Shown: positions 24,113-27,381 of the stretch, in pieces | Numbering within the stretch: the first letter of the stretch is position 1 | Layout of the letters: each line of letters opens with the position of its first letter | Assembly: GCF_002968295.1 (NCBI RefSeq) | Contig: NZ_CP134399.1 | Coordinates: 4,526,001-4,590,000, forward strand | DNA from: Mycobacterium sp. ITM-2016-00317 | Lineage (GTDB): Bacteria; Actinomycetota; Actinomycetes; Mycobacteriales; Mycobacteriaceae | Reading direction: 5' to 3' | DNA: 64,000 nt | Notes under the pieces: generated by a model | What the model was told of the DNA's origin: nothing | The model's input: only the letters and a program-made list of their open reading frames with translations | The model's database searches: none | Position numbers and translations under genes: made by a program

Positions 24113-25825
24113 GTGACCGATACCGGTGAAGCCCCCGCCGCGGTGACCGGCGAGGCGCCGGCGCGCGAGGAATCGACCCCGCCTCGACCCGCATGGTGGG
24201 TTCGCCACTACACCTTCACCGGCACCGCGATCGGTTTCATCTTCGTGTGGTTCTCGCTCACGCCGTCGCTGCTCCCGCGTGGCCCGCTGTTCCAGGGCCT
24301 GGTCAGCGGCGGCGCGGGCGCGATCGGCTACGGGCTCGGGGTCTTCGCGGTATGGCTGGTGCGGTTCATGCGATCCAAGGACAGCAGCCCGCCGGCGCCC
24401 CGGCGGGCCTGGGCGGCGCTCGTCGTGATCGCGGTGATCGGGATGGTCGTGATGGTCGTCCAGTTCCACGACTGGCAGGACGACGTCCGCGACCTGATGG
24501 GCGTTCCGCGCCTGACCTTCTGGGATTACCCTCTGGCAGCGGCGCTTTCGGTGGTGATCCTGTTCGTGCTCGTCGAGATCGGGCAGCAGGTCGGCATATT
24601 CACGCGGTTCCTGGACCGCCAGGTCCGGCGGGTGGCCCCGCCGCGGGTGGCGGCGGTCGTGGTGGTCGCGCTGTTGCTGGCGTTGACGGTGGCACTGCTC
24701 AACGGCGTGGTGGTGCGGGTCGCGATGAGCACGATCAACAAGACGTTCGCCGCGGTCAACGACGAGGCCGATCCCGACTTCGCCGCGCCCACAACGGATC
24801 TGCGCTCCGGCGGACCGCAGTCGCTGGTGAGCTGGGAGTCGCTCGGCCACCAGGGCAGGATCTTCGTCGCCGGCGGCCCGTCGGTCGAGGAGCTCACCGA
24901 GTTCAACGGGTCTGCCGCGACCGAACCGATCCGCGCGTACGCCGGACTGAACTCGGCCGAGGGCATCAAGGAGACCGCGGCGCTGGCCGCCCGCGAGCTG
25001 CAGCGCACCGGCGGCCTGGACCGTGCCGTCGTCGCGGTGGCCACCACCACCGGCACCGGCTGGATCAACGAGGCCGAAGCCTCTGCGCTGGAGTACATGT
25101 ACAACGGCGACACCGCGATCGTGTCGATGCAGTATTCGTTCCTGCCCAGCTGGCTGTCGTTCCTGGTGGACAAGGAGAACGCCCGTCAGGCGAGCCAGGC
25201 GCTGTTCGAGGCTGTCGACGCGCTGATCCGGGAGATGCCCGAGGCGCTGCGCCCGAAACTGGTGGTGTTCGGTGAGAGCCTCGGCTCGTTCGGCGGGGAG
25301 GCCCCGTTCCTGGCGCTGAACAATCTGATCGCGCGCACCGACGGCGCCCTGTTCAGCGGTCCCACGTTCAACAACACGATCTGGACCGACCTGACCCGCA
25401 ACCGCGATCCCGGCTCGCCGATGTGGCTGCCGGTCTATGACAAGGGCGCCAACGTCCGGTTCGTGTCGCAGGCCCGGGACCTGCAGCGCCCCCACGATCC
25501 GTGGGAGCAGCCCAGGGTGGTCTATCTGCAGCACGCCTCGGATCCGATCGCGTGGTGGAACACCGATCTGCTGTTCACCCGGCCGGACTGGCTTCGCGAA
25601 CCGCGCGGATACGACGTGTCACCGAACATGGAGTGGATCCCGGTGGTGACCTTCCTCCAGGTCAGCGCCGACATGGCGGTGGCGATCGACGTCCCCGACG
25701 GCCACGGGCACGTCTACGTCCGCGACGTCGCCGACGCGTGGGCGTCGATCCTGTTGCCGCCGGGCTGGACGCAAGCCAAGACCGAGAAGCTGCGGGGCAT
25801 GCTCCGCAGCGACGAGAACACCTAG
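24113..25825 (+). CDS. membrane-anchored alpha/beta hydrolase (Rv1069c-type)
   Basis: 570 residues, GTG start. N-terminal third has four or five membrane helices (first FTGTAIGFIFVWFSLTPSLLP, a motif typical of the Abhydrolase_9 N-terminal domain); the C-terminal 360 residues are an alpha/beta hydrolase with VAVATTTGTGWINEAEA, nucleophile elbow VFGESLGSFGGEA (Ser about residue 387), LQHASDPIAWWNTDL for the acid and a terminal GHGHVY for the histidine. The active site probably faces a lipid phase. Lies right after echA8 with its own leaderless promoter. The stop TAG shares CTAG with the convergent rhodanese gene. Confidence 0.9.
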   Translation: MTDTGEAPAAVTGEAPAREESTPPRPAWWVRHYTFTGTAIGFIFVWFSLTPSLLPRGPLFQGLVSGGAGAIGYGLGVFAVWLVRFMRSKDSSPPAPRRAWAALVVIAVIGMVVMVVQFHDWQDDVRDLMGVPRLTFWDYPLAAALSVVILFVLVEIGQQVGIFTRFLDRQVRRVAPPRVAAVVVVALLLALTVALLNGVVVRVAMSTINKTFAAVNDEADPDFAAPTTDLRSGGPQSLVSWESLGHQGRIFVAGGPSVEELTEFNGSAATEPIRAYAGLNSAEGIKETAALAARELQRTGGLDRAVVAVATTTGTGWINEAEASALEYMYNGDTAIVSMQYSFLPSWLSFLVDKENARQASQALFEAVDALIREMPEALRPKLVVFGESLGSFGGEAPFLALNNLIARTDGALFSGPTFNNTIWTDLTRNRDPGSPMWLPVYDKGANVRFVSQARDLQRPHDPWEQPRVVYLQHASDPIAWWNTDLLFTRPDWLREPRGYDVSPNMEWIPVVTFLQVSADMAVAIDVPDGHGHVYVRDVADAWASILLPPGWTQAKTEKLRGMLRSDENT

Positions 25826-26190
25826 ACCAGAACACCTTTGAGCGCGTGGTAGCCGCCGATGACGTCGGTGGCGCGGTGCAGACCGAGTTCCTTGAGCGAG
25901 GCCGCGGCCAGGCTGGAGGTGTAGCCCTCCGAGCACAGCACCACCCACTCCACGTCGTCGTCGACCGCCTGCGGGATCCGGGCGTCGCTGGTGGGGTCGC
26001 ACCGCCACTCCAGCACGTTTCGCTCGATCACCAGGGCCTGCGGCACCTCGCCCTCGGCGGCGCGCTGCGCGGCGGGCCGGATGTCGACCAGCACGGCGCC
26101 CCGGGCCAGTGCCGCGGGCACCTCGTCGGCCGGTAGCCGGGTCAGCGTGGCCCGCGCGTCGGCGAGTACGGCGTCGATTCGGCTGCCCAT
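25822..26190 (-). CDS. rhodanese-like sulfurtransferase
   Basis: 122 residues, a single rhodanese domain. LVDIRPAAQR is the first CDC25/rhodanese motif and WVVLCSEGYTSS holds the persulfide-forming Cys86 with a six-residue active-site loop, as in single-domain sulfurtransferases. ATG 26190 overlaps the cysteine dioxygenase stop (ATGA), so both are translated from one transcript. Together the pair suggests handling of sulfur released from cysteine: sulfinate from the dioxygenase and persulfide transfer by this enzyme. Counterpart of Rv1066. Convergent CTAG overlap with the preceding hydrolase. Confidence 0.9.
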   Translation of the reverse strand: MGSRIDAVLADARATLTRLPADEVPAALARGAVLVDIRPAAQRAAEGEVPQALVIERNVLEWRCDPTSDARIPQAVDDDVEWVVLCSEGYTSSLAAASLKELGLHRATDVIGGYHALKGVLV

Positions 26191-26711
26191 CAGTCGCTCT
26201 CCGGTTTGTCCGTCAGTTCGGTTCGGTTGCGGCGCAACGCGTTCTGCGCGGTGACCTCGTAGTAGGACATCGCGGTCAGCGGCGGCGAGTACGCGTGCAC
26301 GCTCAGCGTCGGCCCCGCGGCCGGGGTGCCGCCGCCGGTCACGCTGTCGCGCGCCCACACCACGTCGTGCACCCAGCCGAGCGGGAACGCCGCCTGGTCG
26401 CCGGCCTCCAGCCTGCGGTCGCGCAAAGCCTCACCGTCCCAGCGGGTTTCGGACAGTGCGCCGGAGACCACGGTGAGCGCGCCCAGCGAGCCGCCGTGGT
26501 CGTGGAGTTCGGTCGAGCGGTGCGGAACCCAGCTGATCAGCCAGACGTCGAGTTCGTCGGTGCCGTGCAGGCGGGTGAACCACCGCTCGGTGGTGGGCAA
26601 CCCGGTGGCGGGCAGCAGGTGGTCGTAGTCGCCGCCGAGGACATCGTCGGCGAAGCGGTCGGTGACGTGCAGCAGGTCGGCGGGACGCAGACGGGTGGGA
26701 GCCAGGATCAT
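26190..26711 (-). CDS. cysteine dioxygenase-type cupin
   Basis: 173 residues. Mononuclear non-haem iron enzyme that oxidises cysteine (or a related thiol such as 3-mercaptopropionate) to the sulfinate. Cupin motif 1 is HRSTELHDHGGSLG, with iron ligands His70 and His72; the third His is His115 in PLGWVHDVVW; VHAYSPPLTAMSYYE is the family's Tyr-containing end. ATG 26711 has GGAGAG upstream. The Cys adjacent to Tyr found in mammalian enzymes is absent, as in most bacterial ones. Forms an operon with the rhodanese. A tiny Cys-Cys ORF lies 48 bp upstream and probably regulates it. Confidence 0.9.
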   Translation of the reverse strand: MILAPTRLRPADLLHVTDRFADDVLGGDYDHLLPATGLPTTERWFTRLHGTDELDVWLISWVPHRSTELHDHGGSLGALTVVSGALSETRWDGEALRDRRLEAGDQAAFPLGWVHDVVWARDSVTGGGTPAAGPTLSVHAYSPPLTAMSYYEVTAQNALRRNRTELTDKPESD

Positions 26712-26759
26712 CGGAGCACTCTCCAGAGAAAGACAGACGGACGGATCAGGGGCAGGCGG

Positions 26760-26801
26760 CTAGGCCTGACAACACTCCTGGGTCCGGGTCACGTCGGTCA
26801 C
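26760..26801 (-). CDS. 13-codon leaderless ORF with tandem Cys codons, candidate cysteine attenuator
   Basis: Peptide VTDVTRTQECCQA, GTG 26801 to TAG 26760. Codons 10 and 11 are both TGT. A -10-like CAGACT (26814 to 26809) lies 7 nt before the GTG and no ribosome site precedes it, which is the leaderless pattern. The stop is 48 bp from the cysteine dioxygenase ATG. Leaderless polycysteine short ORFs upstream of sulfur genes are known in mycobacteria as cysteine-responsive attenuators; finding one before a cysteine-degrading enzyme fits that class but with a catabolic target. It is too short to prove by sequence alone. Confidence 0.6.
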   Translation of the reverse strand: MTDVTRTQECCQA

Positions 26802-26808
26802 GGCGGCA

Positions 26809-26814
26809 AGTCTG
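26809..26814 (-). promoter_or_regulatory. -10-like box for the Cys-Cys ORF and cysteine dioxygenase operon
   Basis: CAGACT on the minus strand, one mismatch from TANNNT, 7 nt before the GTG of the short ORF. Compare TAGACT six nt before GTG 16677. Confidence 0.4.
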
Positions 26815-26925
26815 GCACAGGCCGGCCGCCGGTCGCCAGCGTGGCGGCTTAACGTCACGGTGAATCTATCTCTGCGCAGGTCGGCGTCCAGGCGATTTCC
26901 TGGTGCCGCGGCGGGGGCGGTTGCA

Positions 26926-26931
26926 TAGATT
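26926..26931 (+). promoter_or_regulatory. -10 box of leaderless lpqV transcript
   Basis: TAGATT, then 6 nt (GGCCAG), then ATG 26938. Confidence 0.55.
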
Positions 26932-26937
26932 GGCCAG

Positions 26938-27381
26938 ATGGCCAGGAACTCCCTCCGCACCGTGGGCATCGCAGGCACCGTCGCGTCGGCTGTGGTGCTC
27001 GCATCCGCGTGCTCGTCGGGCACCGAGTCCCCCTCGGAACCGTCTGCCACGTCCCCGGCGACGACCGCGACCACCTCCGCGGCTCCGCCCACGGCCCCGG
27101 CAGGGGTCGGTGTCTCCCCCGGCGGCGTGACCACGGCGGTCAGCGCGCCGGCCGAATCCACCGAGGACGACTACTTCCAGGCGTGCCGGGCTGCGCGGAC
27201 GTGGATGGAACAGCAGGGCGGTGACCCACGGGCACAGGTCGAGCCGTACCTGGGCACCGTGCAGCACGCGGAGTCGGTGGGGCCGGGGACGTTCGACAAG
27301 CGGTGGTCGGAGCTGACGCCCGGCCAGCAGTCCGCGGTGATCGTCGCGGTCGAGGCGGCCGCCGACGCGCTCTGCGGCTGA
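26938..27381 (+). CDS. lpqV: lipoprotein LpqV
   Basis: 147 residues. Lipoprotein signal peptide ending in VLASAC (lipid-modified Cys25), followed by a Ser/Thr/Pro/Ala-rich linker (residues 26-72) and a compact C-terminal domain with DDYFQACRAARTWMEQQGG and two further cysteines (CRAARTW and the penultimate Cys) that may pair. Exported and anchored to the outer face of the membrane. Counterpart of Rv1064c. A TAGATT box 6 nt before the ATG indicates a leaderless transcript. Function unknown; the DUF732-like C-terminal domain is common among mycobacterial exported proteins. Confidence 0.88.
   Translation: MARNSLRTVGIAGTVASAVVLASACSSGTESPSEPSATSPATTATTSAAPPTAPAGVGVSPGGVTTAVSAPAESTEDDYFQACRAARTWMEQQGGDPRAQVEPYLGTVQHAESVGPGTFDKRWSELTPGQQSAVIVAVEAAADALCG

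Follow-up and report, generated by a model that had tools for sequence, protein, structure and literature searches.

A conserved leaderless cysteine leader upstream of cysteine dioxygenase and rhodanese genes in Mycobacterium and its relatives is a probable cysteine attenuator

Upstream of the cysteine dioxygenase (CDO) gene in the 64,000 nt stretch of Mycobacterium sp. ITM-2016-00317 DNA analysed here (the window) there is a short ORF with two consecutive cysteine codons. The question raised by this locus is what such a leader does on an operon annotated as one of cysteine breakdown. If a ribosome stalled at scarce cysteine switched the operon on, this would be the reverse of the need for an enzyme disposing of surplus cysteine. 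The sequence-only reading of this DNA had left two ways out, that the attenuator works with the opposite sign or that the enzyme has a role under cysteine limitation.

The features of the locus are collected in Table 1. The 13-codon ORF on the minus strand, its TGT-TGT pair, the CAGACT 7 nt before its GTG and the 48 nt between its stop codon and the ATG of CDO (26711) are all where the sequence-only reading had placed them. In the predicted leader hairpin the Cys codons lie in a loop of the 5' arm and the stop codon in the tip. When both strands of the window were scanned for the complete arrangement (extended -10, 6-7 nt, ATG/GTG, in-frame Cys-Cys, stop), the VTDVTRTQECCQA ORF was the sole match at full score, and one weaker match appeared at a relaxed score. 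The sigma-70 consensus scan, in which a -35 was required, gave no promoter match at the leader. No gathering match to Rfam was found anywhere in the window, and a search of eight leader loci gave only two sub-threshold matches to miRNA families. Terminator-like sites (hairpin plus U-tract) number 0 within 26100-27100, which argues against an attenuator of the intrinsic-terminator type. In M. vaccae NBRC 14118 the CDO is 96% identical to that of the window and the leader peptide is the same.

Table 1. Features of the leader, its promoter and the neighbouring genes, in window positions
Feature	Position	Strand	Remarks
Extended -10 promoter element TGC-CAGACT	26809..26817, hexamer CAGACT 26814-26809	-	7 nt upstream of GTG
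Leaderless leader ORF VTDVTRTQECCQA*, 13 codons (asterisk, stop)	GTG 26801, TAG 26762-26760	-	GTG is the predicted transcript 5' end
Tandem TGT-TGT (Cys-Cys), putative sensor codons	26769..26774	-	Within leader ORF
Long imperfect leader hairpin, predicted	26732..26799	-	Ends a few nt before the CDO Shine-Dalgarno
CDO Shine-Dalgarno CTGGAG	26721..26726	-	Predicted inside a small local hairpin GGAG:CUCC
Cysteine dioxygenase type I (CDO)	26190..26711	-	PF05995, 37.2 bits, cut-off 23
Rhodanese-like protein	25822..26190	-	PF00581; start codon overlaps CDO stop (TGATG)
LpqV-family lipoprotein gene	26938-27381	+	PF17301; divergent from leader promoter

A CDO match at E 0.001 or better, a threshold at which distant CDO-like proteins are counted too, is present in 109 of 118 Mycobacterium genomes, 146 of 201 genomes of the family and 143 of 296 genomes of the class. 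For the family and class together 192 CDO loci were compared, some of which are one genome met twice. By a loose criterion, in which any in-frame ATG, GTG or TTG is accepted and a promoter is not required, 172 of these have a tandem-Cys leader upstream of CDO; the same criterion was satisfied by chance in 177 of 4000 random 400-nt stretches of the window (4.4%). Some of the leaders found in this way in other genera (e.g. L160, L162, L175) may be such chance occurrences. Collapsing repeated sequences reduces the 172 leader loci to 154 distinct ones. In Mycobacterium (L001-L110) the Cys-Cys leader is present in 103 of the 106 automatically anchored loci and in all 4 unanchored ones. With the promoter required, it was found in 20 of 20 further Mycobacterium loci, which are mostly lower-identity CDO matches. 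The conservation of the Cys codons upstream of CDO, which had been set beforehand as one test of the idea, is thus present.

The 20 loci without a leader comprise 3 in Mycobacterium, 14 in other genera and 3 at class level. By eye, the three from Mycobacterium (L017, L058, L075) keep an in-frame TGT and have no Cys-Cys, and three others (L153, L158, L164) have a comparable ORF whose single Cys lies in a terminal RRCRS* or RRCRG*. The latter three belong to genus g19, where CDO and rhodanese (L311-L313) apparently occupy separate loci; the rhodanese has an ECCRG* leader and CDO the one-Cys leader. No Cys-Cys leader was found at L165, L167, L170 and L174, of genus g30, the genomes of which have CDO in an open frame of 305-310 codons. 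In two of these genomes (L331, L332) the match to CDO and that to rhodanese share one frame and are separated by 12 nt, as might be expected of a fusion of the two. Ten Mycobacterium genomes without a close CDO match were searched for rhodanese, and at both of the two loci taken further (L322, L323) the leader was found beside decayed remnants of CDO; these loci are uninformative on function.

Of the 154 distinct loci, 135 have an ATG or GTG that is in frame with Cys-Cys and preceded at 6-7 nt by an extended -10. The same placement occurs in the other two frames in 0 loci, though 56 and 125 of the loci have some ATG or GTG in these frames. The leader start was picked by the best promoter score, and the out-of-frame count is the control, its score having been set after the sequences were seen. 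This promoter phase is the one expected of a putative leaderless start. The choice of Cys codon is also unusual: the leaders use TGT 325 times and TGC 23 times, whereas the counts for eight main ORFs of the window genome are 1 and 20 (Fisher p 3.5e-20), a preference that may reflect slower decoding or an open loop. Exact TGTTGT is present in 151 of 174 leaders. In Mycobacterium it is the best conserved stretch of the leader while the other codons drift; for the other genera, 34 of 34 leaders share a longer unvarying stretch, GGAGTGTTGTCG. The letters differ in distant relatives, yet runs of Cys persist (MRCCC*, MCCC*, MCCR*). As judged from these comparisons, the leader upstream of CDO is a real, old and translated-looking cysteine leader, and the leaderless Cys-sensing ORF proposed by the sequence-only reading appears to be conserved far beyond the genus.

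The sign of the predicted regulation was sought in the RNA fold. For the other genera of the family, alignment A1 contains 34 of the 35 distinct leaders of the ECCRG type (L122 was left out), and in these leaders three nested helices are predicted that cover the Shine-Dalgarno (SD) and the start codon of CDO. Helix one pairs leader codons GCAUGAGC with the CDO start region GCUCAUGC, helix two pairs CCAGG with CCUGG of the SD region, and the third is a hairpin right after Cys-Cys that spans the stop codon. The pairing holds in 95.8% of cells, against 35-45% with slid partners. Neither the 17 cells with changes in both partners nor the covariation score of 0.231 was reached by any of 500 shuffles; the numbers of pairs with double changes (4, matched in 124 of 500 shuffles) and of further pair types (15, matched in 489 of 500) are not exceptional.

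From the leader start to codon 3 of CDO, the leaders of the other genera fold with a mean z of -3.98, and 30 of 35 are below -2; single folds include L126 with a z of -5.56 and L122 with -1.55. The predicted cost of opening the SD is 7.97 kcal/mol in the free RNA and 4.41 with a ribosome at Cys-Cys, so that of 35 SD sequences 31 are opened and 3 closed upon stalling; shuffled leaders shift by 0.21. For the 30S footprint the drop on stalling is 8.99, against 1.78 in shuffles, and 35 of 35 are opened. When the long-range duplex was swapped between species, the native combination was lower in 29 of 35. The equivalent swap of the local hairpin was weak (21 of 35), probably because the leaders of the other genera are nearly identical. 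In a distant class-level genus (L186-L189, L192) with the leader MRCCC*, it can be seen by eye that CUCCGG right after the stop codon complements the SD, CCGGAG. Stalling opens 12 and closes 0 of the mixed group of 14 that holds these loci. Two architectures, the three-helix fold and the MRCCC* pairing, therefore lead to the same predicted sign, in which a stall opens CDO. In the other genera the modelled leader predicts induction of the operon when Cys-tRNA is scarce, the same direction as for the polycysteine leaders already known from mycobacteria. A reversed sign as a general rule is rejected for these genera, where stalling is predicted to open the ribosome binding site (RBS).

The Mycobacterium leaders were folded in the same way. 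Opening the free SD costs 4.03, against 4.96 in shuffles, the free SD thus being more open than shuffled. Stalling makes no net change to the SD alone (24 opened and 26 closed of 105), and masking of the SD only is absent on average. The 30S footprint is opened by stalling in 90 of 125 loci and closed in 1, with a mean of 2.86 against 1.61 in shuffles, an excess of 1.25 kcal/mol. At 84 of 105 loci the two arms of the hairpin match each other better in their native combination than after swapping, with a mean z of no more than -1.36 in size. RNAalifold found no consensus structure for alignment A2, which holds 69 of the 105 distinct Mycobacterium leaders, and the species-swap test of the long-range duplex gave no signal in this genus (native lower in 59 of 105). 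The leader of the window, taken over its whole 108-nt stretch, folds no better than shuffles (z -0.27), and the effect of a stalled ribosome on its RBS is smaller than 1 kcal/mol and goes in either direction. These models suggest that the RBS-masking fold is lost or weak in Mycobacterium and is replaced by the long hairpin that ends before the SD. Because the window leader has no fold that beats shuffles and a stalling effect of less than 1 kcal/mol, its sign is taken from its relatives; the operon is taken to be on at low cysteine in Mycobacterium too, as in the other genera, with less confidence.

Two leaders of the published type are present in the window genome, one before a sirA/nirA-type gene (...CTCCCLP*) and one before a cysA2-type operon (...AGCCCCCCSC*), these names being assigned by Pfam family and by the accessible text of Shell 2015 (PMC4633059). 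They were used as controls in Mycobacterium, with only those loci included that had a detected leader (24 of 30 for sirA and 27 of 30 for the cysA2 type). Stalling opened the footprint of the cysA2-type leader in 26 of 27 loci and closed it in 1, the SD alone being opened in 18 and closed in 4. For the sirA leader 5 footprints were opened and 5 closed of 23, with 9 and 2 of 24 for the SD alone. Since the sirA control shows no opening, the RBS-opening test is not decisive.

On balance the leader is probably a cis-acting cysteine attenuator, in which stalling at Cys-Cys turns on CDO and rhodanese under cysteine shortage. RNA polymerase would begin at the GTG and the ribosome would load on the 5' end of the transcript, as the conserved promoter phase suggests. 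When charged Cys-tRNA is available, the ribosome would pass TGT-TGT and leave, and when it is short, the ribosome would stall there. In the other genera the free leader RNA is predicted, from conserved pairing, to pair with the SD and start codon of CDO, and stalling would uncover these and allow expression of both genes. In Mycobacterium, including the window, the sensor and promoter are kept and the masking appears to be replaced by the long hairpin a few nucleotides before the SD. There a stall would clear the landing zone of the 30S subunit modestly, and in the window sequence not detectably.

It can be argued that in Mycobacterium the sign is reversed by Rho. The stalled ribosome would melt the hairpin, Rho would load on the C-rich, G-poor strand and transcription would end before CDO, so that the operon would be silent when cysteine is low and active when it is high, as expected of a disposal pathway. 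The absence of an intrinsic terminator from the locus and the SD that is open already without stalling would fit this, and for the cys leaders of mycobacteria Rho is suggested, as a weak prediction, in the accessible text of PMC1262725. In 105 Mycobacterium loci the spacer is 51% C and 17% G, and upon stalling its unpaired share is predicted to go from 35% to 62%, with a rise in 124 of 125 loci. A C-rich spacer exposed by stalling keeps the Rho-dependent model of opposite sign alive in this genus, but the spacer becomes exposed to an equal degree in the other genera (35 of 35), for which the opposite sign is predicted from the fold, and the Mycobacterium footprint is, as given above, mostly opened and almost never closed by a stall. 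In addition, the spacer, with a mean of 32.5 nt, is short for Rho to load on. Reversal by Rho is therefore considered rather unlikely.

The remaining explanations do without cysteine sensing to differing degrees. The leader could mainly aid the downstream start, by translation coupling or through the stability of the leader RNA, with sensing a minor matter. The small predicted effects of stalling in the window sequence are in keeping with this, as are the stop-to-start gaps, which in the leader loci are mostly about 35-70 nt; such gaps are, however, too long for direct overlap coupling, and neither the conservation of TGTTGT in Mycobacterium amid drifting codons nor the retention of TGT against genome usage would be expected of it. 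This makes a mere aid to the downstream start improbable. It is also conceivable that a regulator binds the conserved letters, as DNA or as RNA, and that the ORF is incidental. Conservation of TGTTGT at the nucleotide level and the invariance of the longer stretch in other genera would suit a binding site. An incidental ORF would not account for a start and promoter that are in phase with Cys-Cys and never out of phase, or for distant relatives that spell their Cys runs with other letters, and we regard this explanation as very improbable. Attenuation by cysteine is the reading retained here.

If the leader is a cysteine attenuator, the nature of its client genes becomes important. Of the CDO loci with sufficient flanking sequence, 152 of 152 have a rhodanese gene downstream in the same orientation. 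A covariance model built from A1, R1, was used to find further leaders; its search filters may lose weak matches and, being built from A1, its matches lean toward the A1 form of the leader. At E 0.01 it matched 61 of 121 genomes of the family, in one place each; only two of the 61 matches are in Mycobacterium, and there was no R1 match in the window's own genome. By coordinates, 39 of the 61 adjoin a full CDO match. Each of the other 22 is followed by a rhodanese-like gene, identified by tblastn in 21 cases and by eye in one, a divergent ORF; for 18 of the 22, no CDO match lies within the stretch examined. For 20 of them (L302-L321) the rhodanese is downstream on the same strand in every case, and 16 have no CDO match within 2.4-2.5 kb; neither of the last two has a CDO match. 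CDO is reduced to remnants behind the leader at L309 and L310, and at L316 and L317 it is divergent (32% identity), with the HDH iron motif not seen. At L303, L309 and L310 a lysyl-tRNA synthetase-like gene, named by eye, follows rhodanese on the same strand.

Some of the genomes with a CDO-less locus hold CDO or a CDO-like protein elsewhere (e.g. G131, G135, G144, G183), which indicates that the genes have been separated in addition to being lost. At the CDO-less rhodanese loci RBS masking is predicted to be strong, for example going from 27.5 free to 12.0 stalled (ten loci, calculated without shuffles). The catalytic-loop Cys of rhodanese is kept in 151 of 151 readable loci with CDO (152 scanned). 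It is Ser in 13 of 16 loci without CDO, and the leader is nonetheless kept. Since rhodanese is retained at CDO-less loci, even in an apparently inactive form, it seems to be the longer-lasting client of the leader, and CDO a frequent but dispensable partner. The sequence-only reading had spoken of an attenuator on a catabolic operon. The leader does precede CDO, but the word catabolic is doubtful because the leader also sits on rhodanese where CDO is absent, and to call this a 'cysteine breakdown operon' is probably misleading.

The CDO itself looks like an active thiol dioxygenase, with cysteine as its putative substrate. The seven solved sequences matched by the window CDO are all named cysteine dioxygenase or a spelling thereof. 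His70, His72, His115, His139 and Tyr141 are present in 192 of 192 loci, Ser137 in 187 (Thr in 5) and Arg47 in 189 (Lys in 2, Gln in 1). We take His70, His72 and His115 to be the 3-His iron site, Arg47 to serve the carboxylate and Ser137-His139-Tyr141 to be the triad; it is the conservation of the iron His residues, His139, Tyr141 and Arg47 that suggests activity. The CDO proteins are nearly free of cysteine. Of 174 loci, 130 had a complete CDO frame; in these the content is 0.12% Cys and 101 proteins have none, and in six neighbours it is 0.81%.

Published expression data bear on the physiology. In Gordonia NB4-1Y, of the same order as the window organism by NCBI taxonomy, a cysteine dioxygenase was more expressed on three organosulfur sources (sulfonates) than on sulfate, according to the accessible text of PMC7661421. 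In a Rhodococcus proteome, two rhodanese-type proteins were down on an organosulfur source, their relation to the operon rhodanese being a candidate one only, and CDO is absent from the proteins listed in the accessible part of that paper (PMC8557817). It seems more likely that the CDO-rhodanese module serves sulfur limitation than that it disposes of surplus cysteine. Whether it can be called a cysteine-starvation module outright is an evenly balanced matter; in that case a leader stalled at scarce Cys-tRNA would switch it on, its durable client would be rhodanese, in some lineages without the catalytic Cys, and CDO would take part in sulfur salvage, perhaps with another thiol. Between the two ways out that were offered at the start, a role under cysteine limitation is thus favoured by the RNA architecture of the other genera over an opposite sign, although Mycobacterium itself shows little or none of the masking fold.

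Cysteine-responsive leader control would in this way be extended to an operon annotated as one of cysteine breakdown. The predicted sign contradicts the annotation, and the physiological role of CDO therefore becomes directly testable. The leader is also a case of one sensor peptide that occurs both where its two client genes are together and where one of them is missing, and that goes, depending on the genus, with different predicted RNA folds.

A leader peptide on an operon for amino-acid degradation has a precedent in E. coli, where tnaC, the leader of the tryptophanase operon, stalls at high tryptophan. The CDO leader resembles tnaC in the annotated function of its operon, but its stall is expected at low cysteine. 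The tna operon is cited in the accessible text of Seliverstov 2005 (PMC1262725), where Cys leaders were predicted on cys operons. Those leaders, including that of cbs of B. longum, are like the CDO leader in being short actinobacterial ORFs with runs of Cys near the stop and in the suggestion of Rho. In the same accessible text (PMC1262725) they differ in their target genes, and no conserved terminator hairpin was found there; the word 'dioxygenase' does not occur in the text of that paper. The uORFC-8-2 motif upstream of cysS in Rhodobacterales shares tandem Cys codons in a leader ORF, but is, in the accessible part of PMC8632094, alphaproteobacterial and associated with an intrinsic terminator, unlike the CDO leader with no terminator-like site. 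Cys-rich upstream ORFs were described in Shell 2015 (PMC4633059) and Smith 2022, and a 2026 paper refers to cysteine biosynthetic genes. The clients in the accessible texts are cysA2, Rv0485, nirA and cysteine biosynthetic genes, and CDO is not named among them. In the accessible parts of the literature searched on CDO with leader, attenuation or sulfur starvation, nothing was found on this locus, the nearest being the Gordonia expression study (PMC7661421).

With the mycobacterial polycysteine attenuators the CDO leaders share a leaderless start, tandem Cys codons near the stop and a position directly upstream of a sulfur operon. Canestrari 2020 reportedly described these attenuators as leaderless polycysteine short ORFs with six responding loci, in which stalled ribosomes are said to unmask the RBS. 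Predicted RBS masking that is freed by stalling is likewise a feature of the CDO leaders of the other genera. The CDO leaders are unlike the polycysteine attenuators in having only two Cys codons, in having CDO and rhodanese as clients rather than assimilation genes, and in a masking fold that is weak or lost in Mycobacterium. Unless already among those six loci, the CDO leader is filed as an addition to the polycysteine-leader class.
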